A stretch of DNA of 8,119 nt from an uncultured Chloroflexota bacterium (GTDB lineage Bacteria > Chloroflexota > Anaerolineae > Anaerolineales > Anaerolineaceae): contig CADBKS010000220.1 in NCBI GenBank assembly GCA_902795255.1, positions 1 through 8,119 of the forward strand, given 5' to 3'. Position numbers and translations under genes: made by a program. Positions 1 to 7,836 of the stretch are shown one piece after another. Under the pieces are notes generated by a model that was given only the letters and a program-made list of their open reading frames with translations, was not told where the DNA came from and searched no databases. Numbering within the stretch: position 1 is the first letter of the stretch; the number at the start of each line of letters is the position of its first letter.

Positions 1-709
1 AAAACCCGGACGCCGCCAGCATTTCGGTATCATTATAGTTGTCACCGATGGCTGCCGTCTGCCCGAGCGGGATATTCAGATGATCTGCAAGGCGCTTCAG
101 CCCGGTGGCTTTGCTGATCCCCGGGGGCGTGATCTCCAGCGTCGCGTCTTCGGAAAAGGAGAGCTGCAGCGGCAGCGCCTTCAGCTCCGCGTACCCTTTT
201 TCCCGGTCTTCCAGTGTGCGGAAATAGATGTTGATCTTGGGGATAACAGAATAACGCCTGCCTTCCTCCGCCATGTCCGGGACCTGACGGGCGATCCGCT
301 CAAACATCGGCTGATAGACGCCCCGCATGAAATCCGCCATCCGGCAGACATCTGCCGCTGCAGCAACCGACTCCCGTTCGGTCAGGAAATGCGGCATGGC
401 GCCGTATTTCAATGCGGTATCAACGATCCGGTCAATATAAGGCTGACGGATGCCGTCCGTATACAGACAGCGCTCTTCCTCCCGGTCCCAGATCACCGCA
501 CCGCTGGAACAGACCGCGAAGCGGATCATCGGCAGCAGCGGGAAAATATCCCGCATCTCGGCCACACCACGGCCGGTACAGTAAGCGGTCCGGATCCCGC
601 GGTCCAGTGCGGCCTGAATGTCGGCAGCCGTTTTCGGATCGACCGTCTTATCCGAACGCAGCAGTGTGCCGTCCATATCAACGGCGATCAGTTTAATTAT
701 CGGAGCCAT
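1..709 (-). CDS. Cof-type HAD-IIB family phosphatase, 3' end cut by the window edge
   Basis: The visible 236 residues cover most of a roughly 270-residue haloacid dehalogenase-superfamily hydrolase of the Cof/IIB type. These are cytosolic, Mg-dependent enzymes that usually dephosphorylate sugar phosphates or similar small phosphates. Motif I is DMDGT at residues 11-15 (nucleophile D11, acid/base D13). Motif II is the Thr of CTGR at 44-47. Lys200 (GISKATGL) is in the motif III position, and motif IV is GDNYND at 222-227, just before the left edge. The stretch between motifs II and III (about 80-195) holds the type IIB cap. The start is the ATG at 707-709, 12 bp after the stop of the racemase gene. 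Its ribosome binding site is poor, which suggests translational coupling. It is the last visible gene of the amino-acid uptake operon. The substrate cannot be read from sequence. The family call is secure; the link to amino-acid metabolism is only from position. Confidence 0.93.
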   Translation of the reverse strand, partial: MAPIIKLIAVDMDGTLLRSDKTVDPKTAADIQAALDRGIRTAYCTGRGVAEMRDIFPLLPMIRFAVCSSGAVIWDREEERCLYTDGIRQPYIDRIVDTALKYGAMPHFLTERESVAAAADVCRMADFMRGVYQPMFERIARQVPDMAEEGRRYSVIPKINIYFRTLEDREKGYAELKALPLQLSFSEDATLEITPPGISKATGLKRLADHLNIPLGQTAAIGDNYNDTEMLAASGF

Positions 710-721
710 AAAACCATTTGA

Positions 722-1561
722 TCAGAAATTGTAAGAACCAAGCAGACGGGTCATCCCGTAAAGCAGGATCTTTCCTGAGGAAGGATCGCAGCCCGCTTCC
801 AGACAGCCGCCGGGTTCCCGAAGCGTCAGCGTGACCGGCTGTCCGCTCTCAGATGCCAGCAGGACCGCAGCGGCAGCGCTGCCGCTGGCGCAGGAATTTT
901 CACGGAAAAAAGTCCCGCTCCCCGGGACAAAAACAAAAGGCGTCAGCCGGTACGCCGCGTCTTCCGTTTCCAGGAACATCAGACCGAGACAGTCCGCCCC
1001 GAGCAGCGGGCACCAGTCCCGCAGCGCGGCTTCAGCCCCCGCGGGGTCTTCCCGAAGAGACCAGAAACACGAATCCGGACGGATGATGATATGGGTGATT
1101 CCCTGCAGACAGACCGCCCGCAGCGTTTCGGACCGACCGCCGAAGAAAAGCTGCTGCGCAATGACCCCGAGAAGCGGGGGATAGATCACGCAGGCACTGA
1201 AACTCCCGTCCGCATCCCTGCGGATCGTGACTTCCACAGCCTGTGCGGCACCGGAGACTTTCAGCCGGACCGGAACGGAGGTCCCGCACCCGATCCCTTT
1301 TTTCAGGAGGAACATTGCCGCCGTACAGATCGAGGCATTCCCACAGAATTCCCCGCCGGCCATGTACAATTCGGCATCGACCGGCGAACCCGCCTCTTCC
1401 GGGAAACAGACAAAGCCGACCTGCTCGACCTCCGGATGCGCCTGCATCAGCACTGAGGCCGCCCCCGGCCGTTCTGCAGGGGGCACAGGACTTTTCACCA
1501 GCGCCGTAATATTCCCCGTCGGATCCCAGATTTCGTATTTCAGCTGCACGTTCGTACCCAC
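722..1561 (-). CDS. DapF-fold amino-acid racemase/epimerase (CntK histidine-racemase-like)
   Basis: A 279-residue, PLP-independent racemase or epimerase of the diaminopimelate epimerase fold, which uses two cysteines as acid and base on either face of the alpha carbon. Both cysteine motifs are visible: GGEFCGNAS with C73, and ENSCASGSAA with C224, matching the two-half pseudo-symmetric architecture. The first motif reads EFCGNA rather than the GNGxRC type of true DapF. This, with cysteine positions close to what I recall for staphylococcal CntK (about 72 and 219), favours a histidine-racemase-like or other non-DAP amino-acid racemase. The start is a GTG at 1559-1561. An in-frame TGA lies just upstream at 1571-1573, so no in-frame ATG is available, and an AGGTGA stands about 9 nt before the GTG. 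It begins 27 bp after the ATPase gene of an amino-acid importer, so the imported amino acid is a plausible substrate. Diaminopimelate epimerase proper is the main alternative. Confidence 0.8.
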   Translation of the reverse strand: MGTNVQLKYEIWDPTGNITALVKSPVPPAERPGAASVLMQAHPEVEQVGFVCFPEEAGSPVDAELYMAGGEFCGNASICTAAMFLLKKGIGCGTSVPVRLKVSGAAQAVEVTIRRDADGSFSACVIYPPLLGVIAQQLFFGGRSETLRAVCLQGITHIIIRPDSCFWSLREDPAGAEAALRDWCPLLGADCLGLMFLETEDAAYRLTPFVFVPGSGTFFRENSCASGSAAAAVLLASESGQPVTLTLREPGGCLEAGCDPSSGKILLYGMTRLLGSYNF

Positions 1562-1588: not shown

Positions 1589-2347
1589 CTACCGTTCAAA
1601 CACCCGCAGGAACTGCTTCGTGCGTTCCTCCTGCGGATCCTCGAAAACCGCCTTCGGGTCTCCCTGCTCAACGATCACACCGCCGTCCATAAAGATCACG
1701 CGGTTGCTGACCGCCTTTGCGAAGGGCATTTCATGCGTGACGACCACCATCGTCATCTTTTCCTCAGCCAGCTGCCGGATGACCTTCAGCACTTCCCCCG
1801 TCAGTTCCGGGTCCAGCGCCGATGTAGGTTCATCAAAGAAAAGGATCTTCGGGTTCATCGCCAGCGCACGGGCGATCGCCACCCGCTGCTGCTGGCCGCC
1901 GGAAAGCTGGTAAGGATAAGCCTTCGCTTTGTCGGCGATCCCCATCTTCCGAAGCAGCTCCATCGCTGTGGCTTCAGCCTCCTCCCGGCTGCGGTGCTGC
2001 ACGACCATCGGTGCGTCCGTCAGGTTTTTCAGAATATTATAATGCGGGAAGAGGTTGAACTGCTGAAAAACCAGCCCGCAGTAGCTGCGGAACCGCCGCA
2101 TCTCCTTCTGCGAAACATAAACCGCCTTCCCGTCCGCGCCGGTATGGGCAGCCCGCTCCCCCATATAAAGGATCTCCCCGCCGTCGATCTCCTCCAGGAA
2201 GGTCGCGCAGCGGAGCAGCGTTGACTTTCCGGAACCGGACGGCCCGATGATGGAGACGACTTCCCCGCTGTCCACGCTCATGCTGATGTTTTCGATCACG
2301 CCCAGCCCGTCAAAGTGCTTGCGGATATTCTTCATTTCCAGGATCAT
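1589..2347 (-). CDS. Polar amino-acid ABC transporter, ATP-binding subunit
   Basis: This 252-residue protein is the ATPase of a polar amino-acid importer (GlnQ/HisP-type), on the cytosolic face of the membrane. All nucleotide-binding elements are intact: Walker [10 protein letters not shown] at 35-43, Q-loop Q95 in [10 protein letters not shown], signature LSGGQ at 148-152, Walker B ILFFDEP at 168-174, D-loop SALD at 176-179 and switch H205. The [10 protein letters not shown] and SALDPEL wording is characteristic of the polar amino-acid subfamily. I chose the ATG at 2345-2347. It has a GGAGAGGAG ribosome binding site 8 nt upstream, and the protein then starts directly with the usual [12 protein letters not shown] beta-strand. 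A longer reading from 2446 would overlap the permease gene and add 33 residues unlike the family. The gene lies 19 bp after the permease stop and 27 bp before the racemase. Confidence 0.96.
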
Positions 2348-2366
2348 GGTCTTTTCTCCTCTCCGC

Positions 2367-3014
2367 TCAGCGGTAATAGTCCAGGGCTTTTTCGATCCGC
2401 CCCATGGTGAATTCCACGGCATAGTTCGCGATGAAATAGAAAACACCCGCGATCACAAAAGGCATGAACGAGGTCTGCGAAGCCGAGATCTGTTTGGCAA
2501 GGGAAAACACTTCCTGATAAGCCAGTGTAAAGGCCAGCGAGGTATCCTTGACCAGGGTAATGACTTCATTCGTCACGGAAGGCATGATGCGTTTGACGAC
2601 CTGCGGCAGGATCACCCGCAAAAATGTCTGCGATTTTGTATATCCGAGAACCTCAGCCGCCTCATACTGCCCGGCCGGGATGGATTCGATCCCGCCCCGG
2701 TAGATCTCGGCGAAATAAGCCGCATAATTCAGGATGAAGCCGACGATCAGAGCCGGAAAACGCCAGCCGCGGATCGACCAGCCGAAAAGATAATACGGGC
2801 CGAAATACCAGGCCAGCAGCTGCAGCATCAGCGGCGTACCGCGCATGACCGAGATATAAGCCCGGATGATCCCCCGCACCAGCGGGATGCGTGATTTCCG
2901 CAGCAGCGCGACCACCATCCCGAGCGGCAGGGAGCCGACAAGCGTCAGCACGAAGATGCTGCCGGTCCGCAGCATGCCGGCGCTCATCGTAGAAAGCATC
3001 GTCGAAAAGTTCAT
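2367..3014 (-). CDS. Polar amino-acid ABC transporter, permease subunit
   Basis: A 215-residue integral membrane protein of the His/Glu/Gln/Arg/opine permease family (HEQRO, the HisM/GlnP type). Hydrophobic segments lie at about 16-38, 61-77, 87-108, 155-172 and 186-205. The cytoplasmic coupling loop (EAA motif) runs from [15 protein letters not shown] at 117-131 through the following VILPQ, and contacts the ATPase. The family motif RGTPLMLQL is at 58-66. Only one permease gene is present, so the channel is probably a homodimer. The start chosen is the ATG at 3012-3014, giving [10 protein letters not shown] and a normal family length. A GGAAGGA lies about 12 nt upstream, which is rather far. 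An upstream ATG at 3080 would add 22 polar residues encoded by the hairpin region and is unlikely. The gap to the binding-protein gene upstream is unusually long for this operon (128 bp) and holds two hairpins. Confidence 0.94.
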
Positions 3015-3047
3015 TGAAGTCCGTGTTCCTTCCGGTCCCGTAACATC

Positions 3048-3077
3048 CTGCCGCCGGGACGTTTGTTCCGGCGGCAG
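3048..3077 (-). promoter_or_regulatory. Strong hairpin between binding-protein and permease genes
   Basis: CTGCCGCCGG at 3048-3057 and CCGGCGGCAG at 3068-3077 are perfect inverted repeats of 10 bp with a 10-nt loop. No T-run follows on the minus strand, so it is not a standard terminator. It sits between the solute-binding-protein gene and the permease gene. In many importer operons a hairpin in this position protects the binding-protein message and lowers downstream expression. That role here is inference. Confidence 0.7.
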
Positions 3078-3100
3078 CATCTTTGTCTATTTTATCAGTC

Positions 3101-3127
3101 CGGTCCCCGGAAACGCCCCGGGAACCG
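3101..3127 (-). promoter_or_regulatory. Second hairpin just after the binding-protein gene
   Basis: On the minus-strand transcript this segment folds as an 11-pair stem (nine Watson-Crick and two G-U pairs) with a 5-nt loop, beginning with CGGT and ending with ACCG. It lies 16 bp beyond the binding-protein stop codon. An A-rich stretch rather than a U-run follows, so full termination is unlikely. With the hairpin at 3048-3077 it forms a tandem pair that probably acts on mRNA stability or partial read-through. Confidence 0.6.
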
Positions 3128-3142
3128 CCCCGTCATGACAGC

Positions 3143-3922
3143 TTATTTTCCGAGAGAAAGATAGTCGTAGATCTCCGGATACTTCTGACCGATCTGATCA
3201 TAGGTGCCGTCCTCGACGAGGGCCAGCAACGCGGTGTTGACCTTTTCGCAGAGCTCGGTATCATCCTTGCGGAAGCCAATGCCGTACTGTTCACTACCCA
3301 GTTCCTCGCTGAGAAATTCATAATCGGTCTGGCCGCTCATCAGGAAGTTGCCGCTCGTCACATCGATCGCGAGCGCGTCCACCGCACCGGCCTTCAGATC
3401 GTTGAAAGCGATGGTATAGGTCTCGTAGACTTCCAGGGATTTGAAAGTCTTGCACAGCTCCGCCTGACCTTCTTCATCGTTGAGCAGGTCATAAGCGGAA
3501 GTGGAGGTCTGGACACCCACGACCTTGCCGGCGAGATCCGCGAGTGTCTCGATGCCGGAGCCCTTTTTGACCATGATCATCTGGGTATTGTCGGAGTAGG
3601 GAATGCTCCACAAATAGTCATCTTCACGGCCGTTGATGGTGAAACCGGACCAGATGCAGTCGCAGCTGCCGGCATTCAGTTCCAGGTCCTTCGCGTCCCA
3701 GTTGAAGGGGACTGCTTCATACTGCCAGCCGTAATAATCGCAGACGGCCTGCGCCATTTCCACATCGAAACCGCCCATTTCGCCGTTATCGTTGATATAG
3801 GAATACGGGGGATAATCAAGATCAAAACCGTGCTTGAAAACAAAGGTATCTTCAGCCGAAACACTGAGGGCCAGCACAGCGATCATTGCAATTGCCAGGA
3901 TCAGGGAAAAAGTCTTTTTCAT
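3143..3922 (-). CDS. Secreted amino-acid-binding protein of the ABC importer
   Basis: A 259-residue periplasmic-type solute-binding protein (family 3, SBP_bac_3) that captures an amino acid outside the membrane and delivers it to the permease. Residues 1-23 form a signal peptide: MKK, a hydrophobic core, then SVSA before EDT. The fold motifs are DLDYPPYSY (34-42), GFDVEMAQAV (51-60) and SGFTINGRE (92-100). R99 is in the position that normally holds the ligand carboxylate, and D187 in ALAIDVTSG in that for the ligand amino group. The ligand is therefore an alpha-amino acid; its side chain cannot be read. There is no lipobox cysteine, which is odd for a Gram-positive binding protein. The start is the ATG at 3920-3922, with AGGAG 8 nt upstream. 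An in-frame GTG at 3929-3931 overlaps that ribosome binding site and is rejected. It is the first gene of the operon. Confidence 0.95.
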   Translation of the reverse strand: MKKTFSLILAIAMIAVLALSVSAEDTFVFKHGFDLDYPPYSYINDNGEMGGFDVEMAQAVCDYYGWQYEAVPFNWDAKDLELNAGSCDCIWSGFTINGREDDYLWSIPYSDNTQMIMVKKGSGIETLADLAGKVVGVQTSTSAYDLLNDEEGQAELCKTFKSLEVYETYTIAFNDLKAGAVDALAIDVTSGNFLMSGQTDYEFLSEELGSEQYGIGFRKDDTELCEKVNTALLALVEDGTYDQIGQKYPEIYDYLSLGK

Positions 3923-3930
3923 AATGAACA

Positions 3931-3935
3931 CTCCT
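3931..3935 (-). promoter_or_regulatory. Ribosome binding site of the binding-protein gene
   Basis: AGGAG on the minus strand, with 8 nt before the ATG at 3922. This spacing decides the start, because the alternative in-frame GTG at 3931 would overlap the site itself. Confidence 0.85.
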
Positions 3936-3960
3936 GTAGATCTGTATTTATGTTTCTCAA

Positions 3961-3988
3961 CACTTCACTATTTTAACGCGATGAAGTG
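3961..3988 (-). promoter_or_regulatory. Inverted repeat flanking the -10 of the amino-acid uptake operon (operator candidate)
   Basis: CACTTCA at 3961-3967 and TGAAGTG at 3982-3988 are perfect inverted copies. Their starts are 21 bp apart (two helical turns), and they bracket the -10 hexamer at 3970-3975. A dimeric repressor bound there would block RNA polymerase. No regulator gene for this operon is visible in the window, so the protein is unknown. Confidence 0.55.
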
Positions 3989-3997
3989 ATAATGCAA
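3970..3997 (-). promoter_or_regulatory. Promoter of the amino-acid uptake operon
   Basis: Read on the minus strand, TTGCAT (3992-3997) is followed after 16 bp by TAAAAT (3970-3975), a good sigma-70/sigma-A pair in an AT-rich stretch. It predicts a transcript start near 3963 and a leader of about 40 nt before the binding-protein ATG, too short for a large riboswitch. Confidence 0.65.
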
Positions 3998-4023
3998 GAT
4001 ATTAATTTATTTTTATGACAATT

Positions 4024-4052
4024 GGTACAGAAGCACCTGATACGGGTGTACC
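4024..4052. repeat. Inverted repeat GGTACA / TGTACC
   Basis: GGTACA at 4024-4029 and TGTACC at 4047-4052 are perfect inverted copies 17 bp apart, just upstream of the uptake-operon promoter. Inner bases (ACC at 4035-4037 and GGT at 4045-4047) could add a second short stem. It is either a protein site upstream of the promoter at 3970-3997 or the edge of the structured element that follows. Confidence 0.4.
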
Positions 4053-4115
4053 ACACTCGCATAAGTGCTCTGCTATATAAGCTCAGTTTGATATGGATCT
4101 GGCAGTCGGAAGTGA

Positions 4116-4228
4116 GTGCTTCGCACAAGGCGCGGCACGGACGTTCGTGTGTTTGCATAAGCCGCCGGCCGCGCCCGGTTTGTTTAGCCGGGGGCACGGG
4201 CCGGCTAAAGCCGCCCGCTGCCCCCGGC
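4116..4228. repeat. GC-rich structured intergenic element with several inverted repeats
   Basis: The 450-bp gap between the two minus-strand operons holds no credible gene, but this part is dense in dyads. GTGC/GCAC pair at 4116-4126. GGCGCGGC (4129-4136) matches GCCGCGCC (4168-4175). GCCGGGGGCA (4187-4196) matches TGCCCCCGGC (4219-4228). The last stem continues inward as CGGGC/GCCCG and GGC/GCC around a TAAA loop, about 18 pairs with two single-base bulges. A competing 9-bp stem, TTTAGCCGG (4183-4191) with CCGGCTAAA (4201-4209), uses some of the same bases. Its base composition differs sharply from the AT-rich flanks. It could be a dispersed extragenic palindromic repeat, a non-coding RNA or a DNA-level structure. 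A repeat is my best guess. Confidence 0.55.
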
Positions 4229-4321
4229 ACCCCCATTTATCATGTCTGAGATGACAGATTCAATTATGTATCCGCAGCTCGTCATAAGACTCATCCGCAT
4301 TTAGAGGTAACTTTATTAATG

Positions 4322-4350
4322 GAAAACGGCCGGACGAGCCGGCCGTTTTC
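4322..4350 (-). terminator. Intrinsic terminator of the EIIC-like operon
   Basis: GAAAACGGCCGG (4322-4333) and CCGGCCGTTTTC (4339-4350) form a perfect 12-bp stem with a 5-nt loop, 23 bp beyond the stop at 4374. The A/T tracts at the stem ends give a U-run on either strand, so it may work in both directions. Confidence 0.85.
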
Positions 4351-4373
4351 GGAGAGGTTATGCCAGAAAGGTA

Positions 4374-5119
4374 TTAATAGACATTCAGAAAATCATTGAT
4401 GGCGTCCTTGGCTGCCTTTTCAACCATCTTATCGATGGAGGTGCCGATCACCAGAATATTGACGCCGGTATCCTTGAAAGCCTGGTAGTTGGTCAGGTTG
4501 ATGCCGCCTTCACCGAGGGTCGGAACATGGACGGTCTCGACCATCGCGCAGAGTCTTTCCTTCAGGACGGTCGGGATCTGTCCGGCTTCCACGCCTTCGT
4601 AGCTCATGCCGGTCATCATACCGATCATATCGGTACCGACTTCTTCCATCTGCTTCGCGACGCGGCGGACGTCTTCCGGGGTTTCGGCGGGCAGACCGAA
4701 GATGTGGCGGTCCGTGGGCAGGCCGATGTAGGCATCATCTTCTGCATATCGGCATCGGTCAGGATGACAGGCTGTCTTTCGGTGAAGCTGCCGGGGATGC
4801 CCACGGTGATGTAGATATCTTCACCGACGACGGCGCGGACACCGCGGGTAACTTCGGCCATCTGGTCGATGGTGATCTCATGGCGGTAGTTTTCAGCGTC
4901 ATGCATGACGGTGATGCCGCGGTGGCCGCGGGCCAAGACAACAGCCGGATGGTTCGGTTCCAGCATCGTGGCGCCGGCTTCGACCGCTGCGCGGGCGAGG
5001 CGGGCATCATCACCGGTGATCCCGGTGCTCAGAATGGTGTGGCCGTGACCTTTTTCGATCGCACGGTGAACGATTTCCATGCTGCGTTTGCGCTTCAGAT
5101 CCATGTCGTTGTAAATCAT
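4374..5119 (-). pseudogene. TIM-barrel-like protein, reading frame broken by a -1 shift
   Basis: Two adjacent frames together encode one protein of about 248 residues. The first half (from the ATG at 5117-5119, GGAGGA 6 nt upstream) includes HTILSTGITGDDARLARAA and the strand GEDIYITVGIPGS, then goes out of frame after about residue 128 (ADMQKM). The second half resumes at about 4736 as DAYIGLPTDRHIFGLPAE and runs to the TAA at 4374-4376. Its end, LGEGGINLTNYQAF then GVNILVIGTSI, looks like the phosphate-binding strands 7 and 8 of a TIM barrel, as in phosphosugar aldolases and synthases. I do not recognise the exact family. One missing base near 4736 restores the frame. No slippery heptamer for programmed shifting is visible, so a sequencing error or a recent inactivating deletion is likeliest. 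Codon use and conservation look intact on both sides. It follows the EIIC-like gene by 74 bp and probably shares its transcript. Confidence 0.75.
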
Positions 5120-5141
5120 TTTCAATCCTCCAAAATTTTTA

Positions 5142-5193: not shown

Positions 5194-6762
5194 TTATCCC
5201 TCGGCCACTTCCTTCTTCCCGTCGATGATATTCGCCGCCAGGGTCAGCACAAAAGCAGTGCCCATCGCGATGACCATACAGATGATGGTGGGGACGACTT
5301 TGTCATTGGAGACAAACGGCGCCACGAAGCAGGGGACGTAAGCCGTGCACATCACATTGAAGGCACCGATCGCCAGACCGGAAAGTGTGGAGGCGATGAT
5401 CGCGGACGCGAAGACCTTTTTGCTCGCGAACATGAAAGGATATGCCGCCTCAACGAAGGTCCCGAACACCAGGTTCACAAAGAGGTTGGGGATGCAGGTG
5501 ACCCGGTCGCTGCCGTGCTTCGGTTTTACGATGTTGGCAAGCTGGATGCCCGCGCAGACCATGACCAGACCGCAGAGGTCGATCGCACCGAGGAAGCTGT
5601 AGCCCTGGGATTCCATTTCAAGCAGAACGATCGGCAGGATCGCGGCGTGATAGACACCGCCGATGATCGCGAACCAGATGGCGAAGCCGGCGATGATCCC
5701 GGCCAGAATGCCGTTGGTGGCAAGCGCCCAGTCAATGGCTGCCTTGATGCCGTTGCCGGCCAGCAGTGCGACCGGAGCGATCGCGAATTTACCGATCAGG
5801 CCTGCAGCAAGACCGCCGAGACCGCCGGCTGCGATGTTCGTGGTCGTACCGGGAACGCGGTGGGAAAAACAGAACTGGCTGATGTAGTAAACGAAAATGC
5901 CGCCGAGAATACCGACGACGATACCGCCGATAATGCCGCCGTCAACAGACATCGCACCGGCAACGACACCGGCCACGATGCCGACCTCGTCCATACCGGA
6001 AACCTGTTTCGCGGCAACGGCCGCAACGATGATCGGCAGGATGCCGACAAGATCATTGAAGACGTCTTCCAGAATGCCGAGGCCCGGGATCTTGGAGAGC
6101 GCAAGGCAGATCGCCATGGCGATGAAGCCCGGCATGGAGGCCATCATGATCCCGCGGAAATTGATGCGCTTCCAAACAGAGCCCTGTGCGGCCTGTCCGG
6201 CTTTGGAGGAACCGATCACCGGGCGGTACTTGATGCCCCATTCCTTGGAGAACGCTGCGACAGCGGATACGGCACGGGTCCGGTTGGTCGTGCCCGTCGT
6301 ACCGGAAGCAGCGATCACACGGCAGCCCAGCGCCTGGGTATCGGCCATGGACGTTCCGCCGGTCCCCGCGACCGCGACTTTCTTTTCCGCGGCAGCTTTC
6401 AGCGCTTCATTGTTGATCCCCTTCGGATCGCAGCTCATCAGCATGATGCCGTCGATCTTCCCGTCACGGATCAGTTTCGCGAGCTTCGCGTCGCATTCTT
6501 TGGCGAGCTTGTTGATCTCGGCGAGCGTACCTTCTTTGCTTTCGGTCAGCTCACCGTTCTGATCAAGCGTGTAAAGCTTCGCTTTCGCGTTCTGGCTGAT
6601 GCCATCCATACTGCCGTTCGTTCCCACGAACTGAACAAAAGCCACTTCGACTCCGGCAGATTCCGCCTGGGTGAAGATCTCCTTCATCATTCCGTAAGGA
6701 TCACTTCCGCCCTGGTTGTACAGGTTTCCGCCGCTGCTGCCCAAAACAGCCAACTGTTTCAT
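5194..6762 (-). CDS. PTS EIIC-like membrane protein with an unrecognised soluble N-terminal domain
   Basis: A 522-residue protein in two parts. Residues 1-180 are soluble and alpha/beta in pattern, with glycine-rich motifs LGSSGGNLYNQGGSDPYG (7-24), FVGTNGSMDGIS (45-56), DGIMLMSCDPKG (104-115) and AGTGGTSMADT (132-142); I do not recognise this domain. From about 200 to 513 there are some nine or ten hydrophobic segments that resemble a phosphotransferase-system EIIC channel. GGVYHAAILPIVLLE (368-382) corresponds to the conserved Gly-His-Pro substrate loop, and FVEAAYPFMFA (436-446) to the ITEGAIPF-type motif of fructose-family EIIC. I see no EIIB phosphocysteine loop or EIIA histidine domain in it or beside it. 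The start is the ATG at 6760-6762 after AGGGGGTG. It leads an operon with the barrel gene and is probably repressed by the divergent GntR protein. Transport, sensing or a combined enzyme role are all open. Confidence 0.75.
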   Translation of the reverse strand: MKQLAVLGSSGGNLYNQGGSDPYGMMKEIFTQAESAGVEVAFVQFVGTNGSMDGISQNAKAKLYTLDQNGELTESKEGTLAEINKLAKECDAKLAKLIRDGKIDGIMLMSCDPKGINNEALKAAAEKKVAVAGTGGTSMADTQALGCRVIAASGTTGTTNRTRAVSAVAAFSKEWGIKYRPVIGSSKAGQAAQGSVWKRINFRGIMMASMPGFIAMAICLALSKIPGLGILEDVFNDLVGILPIIVAAVAAKQVSGMDEVGIVAGVVAGAMSVDGGIIGGIVVGILGGIFVYYISQFCFSHRVPGTTTNIAAGGLGGLAAGLIGKFAIAPVALLAGNGIKAAIDWALATNGILAGIIAGFAIWFAIIGGVYHAAILPIVLLEMESQGYSFLGAIDLCGLVMVCAGIQLANIVKPKHGSDRVTCIPNLFVNLVFGTFVEAAYPFMFASKKVFASAIIASTLSGLAIGAFNVMCTAYVPCFVAPFVSNDKVVPTIICMVIAMGTAFVLTLAANIIDGKKEVAEG

Positions 6763-6831: not shown

Positions 6832-6859
6832 ATTGTACGTACATTTTAAAAGCCGTCAA
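6832..6859 (-). promoter_or_regulatory. Promoter of the EIIC-like operon
   Basis: On the minus strand TTGACG (6854-6859) is followed after 16 bp by TACAAT (6832-6837), five of six matches to consensus in each hexamer. The predicted start is near 6825, giving a leader of about 60 nt before the ATG at 6762. Confidence 0.8.
6834..6843. promoter_or_regulatory. Operator candidate for the GntR/HutC regulator
   Basis: TGTACGTACA is a perfect 10-bp palindrome, with partial symmetry reaching 6831-6846. It overlaps the -10 hexamer of the EIIC-like operon. It has the GT-N4-AC spacing used by HutC-subfamily GntR repressors, and the divergent gene at 7108 encodes such a protein. Binding there would block the promoter, so repression is the likely mode. 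Confidence 0.65.
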
Positions 6860-7007: not shown

Positions 7008-7045
7008 ATACTTTTTACGGATATTTAAATACTTTTTGTACGCAA
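7008..7045. promoter_or_regulatory. Direct repeats and degenerate operator upstream of the GntR gene
   Basis: ATACTTTTT occurs at 7008-7016 and again at 7029-7037, exactly 21 bp apart. The second copy runs into TTGTACGCAA (7036-7045), which shares TTGTACG with the operator at 6833-6839 and keeps only imperfect symmetry. This could be a weaker site for autoregulation of the GntR gene. I found no convincing -35/-10 pair for that gene in this gap; TAAGAT at 7072-7077 is the best -10 candidate, with no good -35. Confidence 0.4.
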
Positions 7046-7107
7046 ATTCAGTAAAGACGGACAAACCGTGATAAGATTAATTTCACCTTAACCAAGAGGG
7101 TACCGAC

Positions 7108-7836
7108 ATGACCGATTCAAAGAAAAAATTCCGCTATTTTCAGATCTACCAGGAGATCCGGGATCAGATCGAAGACGGGCGGATCCCATCCGGCACGCAG
7201 CTTCCCACCGAAGCCGAGCTGCAGAAAACCTACGGTGTCAGCCGGGACACGATCCGGAAAGCGCTTCAGAAACTTGAGATGGAGGGCATCATCAACCGGC
7301 GCGCCGCGCTCGGTACCTTTGTCCGCTCCGCCAAATCCGTTTACGCACTGTCCTCCATGTCCTCCTTTTCCGAACAGATGCACAGCCGGGGCGTCGTCCC
7401 GAGCTCCGACCTGAAAAGCATCGACCTCACCGCGGAGATCCGTGCGGACATCCGCGAGGCCCTGCAGCTCGGTCCCGAAGAGCGCTGCTACATCGTGAAA
7501 AGGATCCGCCGGGGAGACGGGATCCCGATGGCGTTCGAAGAGACCTACATTCCTGCCGCGCTTTGCCCCAACATCCAGAAATACATCGATGAAAACGCGT
7601 CCCTGTATGAGATCTACGAAAATGTCTACGGCCTGAAGATCGGGGATGCCAATATCGACCTGGAAGCGATCATCCCGCCGCTCAAATATCAGACCGCGCT
7701 GTCCCTTCCGAAGGAGTCGCCGGTCCTTTTCATGCGCTGTTCCGCCCGTCAGCAGTCCGGGGCCCCGCTTTATTACGTGGAGTGCTACTACAGCGGCAAC
7801 AACTACGTCTTTTCCGCCCATGTGATGAGAGGATAG
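7108..7836 (+). CDS. GntR-family transcriptional regulator, HutC subfamily (UTRA domain)
   Basis: A 242-residue, full-length member of the HutC branch of the GntR family: cytosolic dimeric regulators, mostly repressors released by a small metabolite. The N-terminal winged helix-turn-helix spans about 8-75, with PSGTQLPTEAEL (27-38), recognition helix SRDTIRKAL (45-53) and wing ending in GTFV (69-72). The rest is a UTRA effector domain (about 85-240), seen in SFSEQMHSRG (86-95), the MAFEETYIP strand (141-149) and the closing PLYYVECYYSG strand with FSAHV. Effectors of this branch are typically sugar phosphates, amino acids or related acids. The start is the ATG at 7108 with AGAGGG 7 nt before it. 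It is divergent from the EIIC-like operon, whose promoter carries a matching palindrome, and precedes an FAH-family gene by 96 bp. It very likely controls both sides. Confidence 0.95.
   Translation: MTDSKKKFRYFQIYQEIRDQIEDGRIPSGTQLPTEAELQKTYGVSRDTIRKALQKLEMEGIINRRAALGTFVRSAKSVYALSSMSSFSEQMHSRGVVPSSDLKSIDLTAEIRADIREALQLGPEERCYIVKRIRRGDGIPMAFEETYIPAALCPNIQKYIDENASLYEIYENVYGLKIGDANIDLEAIIPPLKYQTALSLPKESPVLFMRCSARQQSGAPLYYVECYYSGNNYVFSAHVMRG

Follow-up and report, generated by a model that had tools for sequence, protein, structure and literature searches.

We analysed a stretch of 8,119 nucleotides from an uncultured Chloroflexota bacterium (assembly GCA_902795255.1, contig CADBKS010000220.1; hereafter the window). 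On its minus strand, at 5194..6762, it encodes a 522-residue protein, in which a soluble N-terminal domain precedes a membrane part of the EIIC type known from the phosphotransferase system (PTS). We suggest, with a probability of about 0.5, that this protein is a PTS-derived sugar or polyol carrier, which has a Rossmann-like ligand-binding domain in the place of EIIB and uses no fused or neighbouring EIIB. The membrane part has the EIIC fold, and the protein belongs to a large family of wide distribution, which has a conserved partner gene of its own, a TIM barrel. The layout of the gene, based in part on an AlphaFold2 (AF2) model, is as follows.

5194..6762, minus strand: EIIC-like protein with N-terminal Rossmann-like domain (open reading frame with ATG start, 522 aa)
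6217..6762, minus strand: N-terminal soluble domain (N-domain), residues 1 to ~182 (AF2 and invariant columns; GSSGGNL at 8-14, GTGGTS at 133-138, SGTTGTTNRTRA at 153-164)
5194..6177, minus strand: EIIC membrane domain, residues 196-522 (His372 codon 5647-5649, Glu438 codon 5449-5451)

An EIIC carrier family with an N-terminal domain

The EIIC motifs of the window protein are GGVYHAAILP, with His372, and GTFVEAAYP, with Glu438. Both residues are kept in 230 of 230 family sequences. The first-pass annotation, made from the sequence alone, is borne out in its view of an EIIC membrane part with the two best-conserved motifs. Five EIICs from the class survey that pass the PF02378 cut-off match the window protein (8e-9 to 1.5e-4); the sixth comparison record, L028, gives no match. 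All five comparison EIICs, once aligned, have the His motif and four have the Glu, where L022 has Gln; the alignment has a slack of one residue at the Glu motif. The profile search proposed in that annotation gave EIIC-related matches but missed the curated cut-offs: TIGR01995 reaches 36.7 bits against 614.7 and TIGR01996 33 bits against 559.3, both being models of whole multi-domain proteins, and PF02378 reaches at most 27.5 bits against 30.7, or is unseen, in the window protein and 12 singly scanned relatives. The precomputed column of the database gives PF02378 for 5 of the 120 relatives listed.

The fusion is not a chance one, because a search with the window protein scored 7998 candidates, of which 959 are homologues at E <= 0.001 (120 listed); with the E. 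coli orthologue as a query the number is 945 among 7999 (again 120 listed). Relatives carry database names such as ‘PTS sugar transporter’, ‘hypothetical protein’, ‘putative phosphotransferase system protein’ and ‘fructose-specific phosphotransferase system IIC component’ or similar. Those listed for the window query include Lachnospiraceae and Mogibacterium metagenome-assembled genomes (MAGs), and those for the E. coli query include Salmonella enterica, Yersinia, Pantoea, Morganella, Paenibacillus, Brevibacillus, Oceanobacillus and Bacillus. Among 393 genomes of the class of Parablautia muri (G008) there are 11 matches, three to whole proteins (that of G008 itself included) and eight weak and partial. 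Two queries found no match in plasmids, and no title describing this EIIC/N-domain fusion was found in the open-licence literature. To view the protein as an orphan oddity understates it, given the wide spread of the family and its conserved partner.

The first membrane helix begins near residue 202 of the AF2 model, which has a mean pLDDT of 87.6 and a pTM of 0.77; residues 1-187 modelled alone give 92.9 and 0.89. Invariant N-domain residues in the 63-sequence alignment are G8, S10, G11, G12, L14, E28, L80 and N84 in the first half and S110, P113, G133, T134, G135, G136, G154, T156, T158, T159, T162, R163 and A164 in the second; their position at strand ends was tallied by hand from the alignment and the AF2 model. 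Of the Gly-rich motifs noted earlier in the soluble part of about 180 residues, SSGGNL and GTGGTS are strongly conserved and VGTNGS only partly, since its Gly47 is kept in at least 90% of an 83-sequence alignment but not in the wider 63-sequence one. The third strong motif is SGTTGTTNRTRA (153-164), absent from the earlier list.

No Pfam or NCBIfam family passes its cut-off in the N-domain of the window protein. The earlier remark that this domain is unrecognised holds, and the structure prediction and fold search proposed with it place the domain no more closely than in a generic Rossmann/flavodoxin-like class that leans towards binding proteins. The nearest described family is Peripla_BP_4 (PF13407), with at best 26.4 bits against a cut-off of 35.1 (P0246; E 6.3e-6) and E 1.1e-5 in a second relative. 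Type II dehydroquinase is suggested by fold rows and by a similar first loop; we do not claim homology, because the profile comparison gives P 0.13 local and 0.96 global. The whole protein has no relative in the PDB at E <= 1 as a single sequence, and the best profile match there is at E 0.17. Short N-domain matches number 69, most of which appear cut off or chimeric; a few, such as P0151, P0130, P0157 and P0152, may be stand-alone proteins.

The identity of the N-domain as EIIB or EIIA was considered and rejected because it has no conserved Cys or His and no family match. Its best-kept cysteines are Cys111 (119 of 230 sequences) and Cys147 (111 of 230), no His is conserved in half of the 230, and the only cysteines in the N-domain of the E. 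coli orthologue are C33 and C174. For 63 members, neither EIIA nor EIIB is found among the families listed, which are 25 out of 40. Profile alignment (hhalign) of the N-domain with 7 of 12 PF02302 loci gives P 0.33 local and 0.97 global, and EIIB is absent among the 50 fold-comparison rows listed, which are no test of EIIB kinship. The claim that EIIA and EIIB are missing nearby also stands: neither domain is found among the nine window proteins scanned, and no gene for either adjoins the transporter in three E. coli operons.

Partner gene, regulators and neighbourhood

Gut clostridia have the transporter/barrel gene pair, and so do a few E. coli. In 12 of 17 loci the next gene after the transporter encodes a 279-residue TIM barrel, followed by a GntR regulator in 10 of 17; L006, L007 and L017 of this set are cut by contig ends. 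A barrel match is found in 14 of 18 carrier genomes. In L004 the barrel sits elsewhere in the genome, and no barrel match is found in the genomes of L001, L002 and L016. Two relatives at ~55% identity, L019 and L020, retain both barrel and GntR. In the window itself the barrel gene is broken.

4374..5125, minus strand: TIM-barrel partner gene, broken (two open reading frames, 4625-5125 and 4374-4649, that differ in frame; tblastn with the L003 orthologue)
7108..7836, plus strand: divergent GntR/UTRA regulator, 242 aa (PF00392 4e-20, PF07702 1.4e-27)
6833..6844, no strand: TTGTACGTACAT, containing the perfect palindrome TGTACGTACA (6834-6843), in the spacer between the divergent GntR and transporter genes
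7035..7046, no strand: TTTGTACGCAAA, imperfect second palindrome copy near the GntR start, found by eye

The family alignment leaves approximately residues 129-160 of the intact barrel protein (~32 codons) unmatched, and the adjoining transporter is intact; the break is either gene decay or an assembly fault. In its C-terminal part the barrel family is similar to the same part of hexulose-6-phosphate synthase and of ThiE, which we read as a phosphate site; a protein of Sebaldella termitidis, 4ml9, is reported under a title that refers to its phosphate-binding site. This solved member of the barrel family is listed in the PDB as ‘uncharacterized protein’ (E 1.3e-139 over 277 positions).

The palindrome search, with one mismatch allowed, has 0.01 hits expected per window. 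Exact TGTACGTACA occurs upstream in 6 of 21 loci (window included), within 330 bases (240 in L012). All six belong to the 13 loci that have a GntR gene nearby; the eight without one, three of them cut by contig ends, have none. In B. subtilis another GntR protein has as its operator the AraR box, whose core agrees with TGTACGTACA (PMC4218819). The palindrome is a good candidate for a GntR operator.

The operon is found in 3 of 5426 complete E. coli genomes, as a rare insertion between lysC and yjbD (L035:8909-12989). Its order is transporter, barrel (named ‘histidine biosynthesis protein’), Cof-type HAD phosphatase and DeoR regulator; genes of a zeta-toxin family protein, a nucleotidyltransferase and a slipin lie between lysC and the operon in L035. 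A Cof-type HAD-IIB phosphatase is also encoded at 2-709 (minus strand) of the window, where it is cut by the window end. Next to it, at 722-1561 (minus strand), lies a diaminopimelate-epimerase-like protein, for which histidine racemase models stay below threshold (78.4 bits against 300 and 64.2 against 400), adjoined by a polar amino-acid ABC transporter (1589-3931).

In 8 of the 17 loci (L003, L004, L005, L008, L010, L011, L012 and L013) the module is closely followed by hisB, which encodes imidazoleglycerol-phosphate dehydratase. We treat this as a position common to related Lachnospiraceae and not as function. L012 has a His_biosynth/HisIE fusion near the module, and in L005 a gene related to this fusion lies upstream. 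In L009 a gene of the malate/L-lactate dehydrogenase family (Ldh_2; 3745-4857), possibly a pathway enzyme, follows the GntR gene.

Proposed mechanism and its alternatives

Step 1: The EIIC part would take a sugar or polyol through the membrane in the elevator manner known from PtsG.

Step 2: The N-domain would stand on the cytosolic face, at the docking place of EIIB; we infer this location from positive residues just before the first membrane helix and from the known topology of EIIC. The invariant Gly/Ser/Thr loops at the sheet ends would bind the incoming solute or its phosphorylated metabolite, and this binding would gate or pull the transport.

Step 3: The TIM-barrel partner, plus the phosphatase in E. 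coli, would then process the phosphorylated compound. The phosphorylation may be performed by the PTS in trans, by a separate kinase or, in the boldest version, by the N-domain itself. The pathway would be regulated by GntR in clostridia or by DeoR in E. coli. Ligand binding by the N-domain, independence of the PTS in vivo and the pathway as a whole are parts that we infer.

The protein might instead be an ordinary PTS permease, supplied with EIIB and EIIA in trans by other systems, with an N-domain that is only regulatory or structural. We consider this possible but unlikely. Such cross-talk is the subject of a paper on the B. subtilis PTS (PMC6148471), the His and Glu of EIIC are invariant, and the phosphate-handling neighbours (TIM barrel and HAD phosphatase) fit a phosphorylated product. 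The genome-wide check for EIIB and EIIA proposed at the outset gave a divided answer. Its counts rest mostly on MAGs and its searches use a loose first look; since most genomes behind the named records are MAGs, single absences are weak. EI and EIIA_1 were scored in the 16 carriers other than G141 and G206, and EIIB by three families. The EI N-domain is found in 15 of 16 carriers, EIIA_1 in 10 of 16 and EIIA_2 in 9 of 18; EIIB_Glc is found in 8 of 16 and one of the two further carriers, PTS_IIB in 8 of 18 and PTSIIB_sorb in 4 of 18.

EIIB of at least one of the three families is present in 13 of the 18 carriers and could act in trans. In G009 (L009) a sucrose-type EIIBC is encoded as a separate gene ~7.6 kb downstream; the E. 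coli operon has a PTS operon of the mannose family ~5.9 kb downstream, past yjbD and rluF.

On the other side, none of the three EIIB families is found in 5 of the 18 carriers (G007, G008, G015, G016 and G141), which argues against the PTS in trans for at least some species. Among them, the isolate Parablautia muri (G008) has EI, and its single EIIA_2 match falls in a frame interrupted by a stop. In the Mogibacterium MAG G015, the EI exception, the EI N-domain, EIIA_1 and EIIA_2 are all not found; its sole PF02896 match lies within an 890-residue frame taken for pyruvate phosphate dikinase. In 17 of the 18 carriers the contig shows no match to the three EIIB families up to 10 kb from the transporter, several contigs ending sooner.

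It is rather improbable that the N-domain is a kinase or another phosphoryl-transfer enzyme with a different donor (ATP, pyrophosphate or acetyl phosphate), so that a single polypeptide both transports and phosphorylates. The partner is a barrel of the phosphate-binding type, no kinase gene is seen in the usual module, and the invariant Gly/Ser/Thr loops, foremost SGTTGTTNRTRA, resemble in our reading a phosphate-binding loop. Weak Foldseek rows include pyrophosphate-dependent phosphofructokinase at probabilities of 0.16 to 0.47; however, its TM by query is low (0.22-0.27), no kinase family passes its cut-off, and an unlinked kinase would serve equally. Slightly more doubtful again is a one-chain, PTS-independent group-translocation carrier, whose N-domain would phosphorylate the sugar from a donor other than phospho-EIIB and feed the phosphate-binding TIM barrel. 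The proposal of the first-pass annotation that the front domain replaces phosphotransfer is not established, with a fold that is only generic and EIIBs in most carriers; a different chemistry of this PTS-derived carrier is a testable possibility, not a result. A transceptor, with a small flux and with the main task of sensing a solute and relaying this to the cell, is very unlikely, as the solute-site His and Glu of EIIC are invariant and regulators of the GntR/UTRA and DeoR types respond to ligands of their own.

What is known of EIIC channels is tied to their need for EIIB. If the N-domain replaces EIIB across the family, this would show that the EIIC fold is able to function apart from the usual PTS chain, and the family would mark a gut-bacterial sugar pathway without an assigned substrate. 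The E. coli operon gives a testable case, and the partner enzyme has a solved relative.

Comparison with known systems

The solved protein 4ml9 is a relative of the partner enzyme and not of the transporter, and is listed without a function. Compared with type II dehydroquinase and flavodoxin-like enzymes, the N-domain shows no significant profile-profile similarity. It is nearer to the type I periplasmic/LacI sugar-binding fold (Peripla_BP_4). However, it corresponds to approximately one lobe only, is fused to a membrane carrier with no signal peptide seen, and stays below the curated cut-off in the members with scores listed. With the PTS EIIC glucose superfamily (PF02378; TIGR01995/TIGR01996; PtsG, MalT, PTTBC) the family shares the membrane fold and the His and Glu motifs. 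Unlike in that superfamily, the membrane domain of the window protein is shorter and shows a gap midway through the alignment, and instead of a fused or adjacent EIIB the family has the N-terminal Rossmann-like domain.
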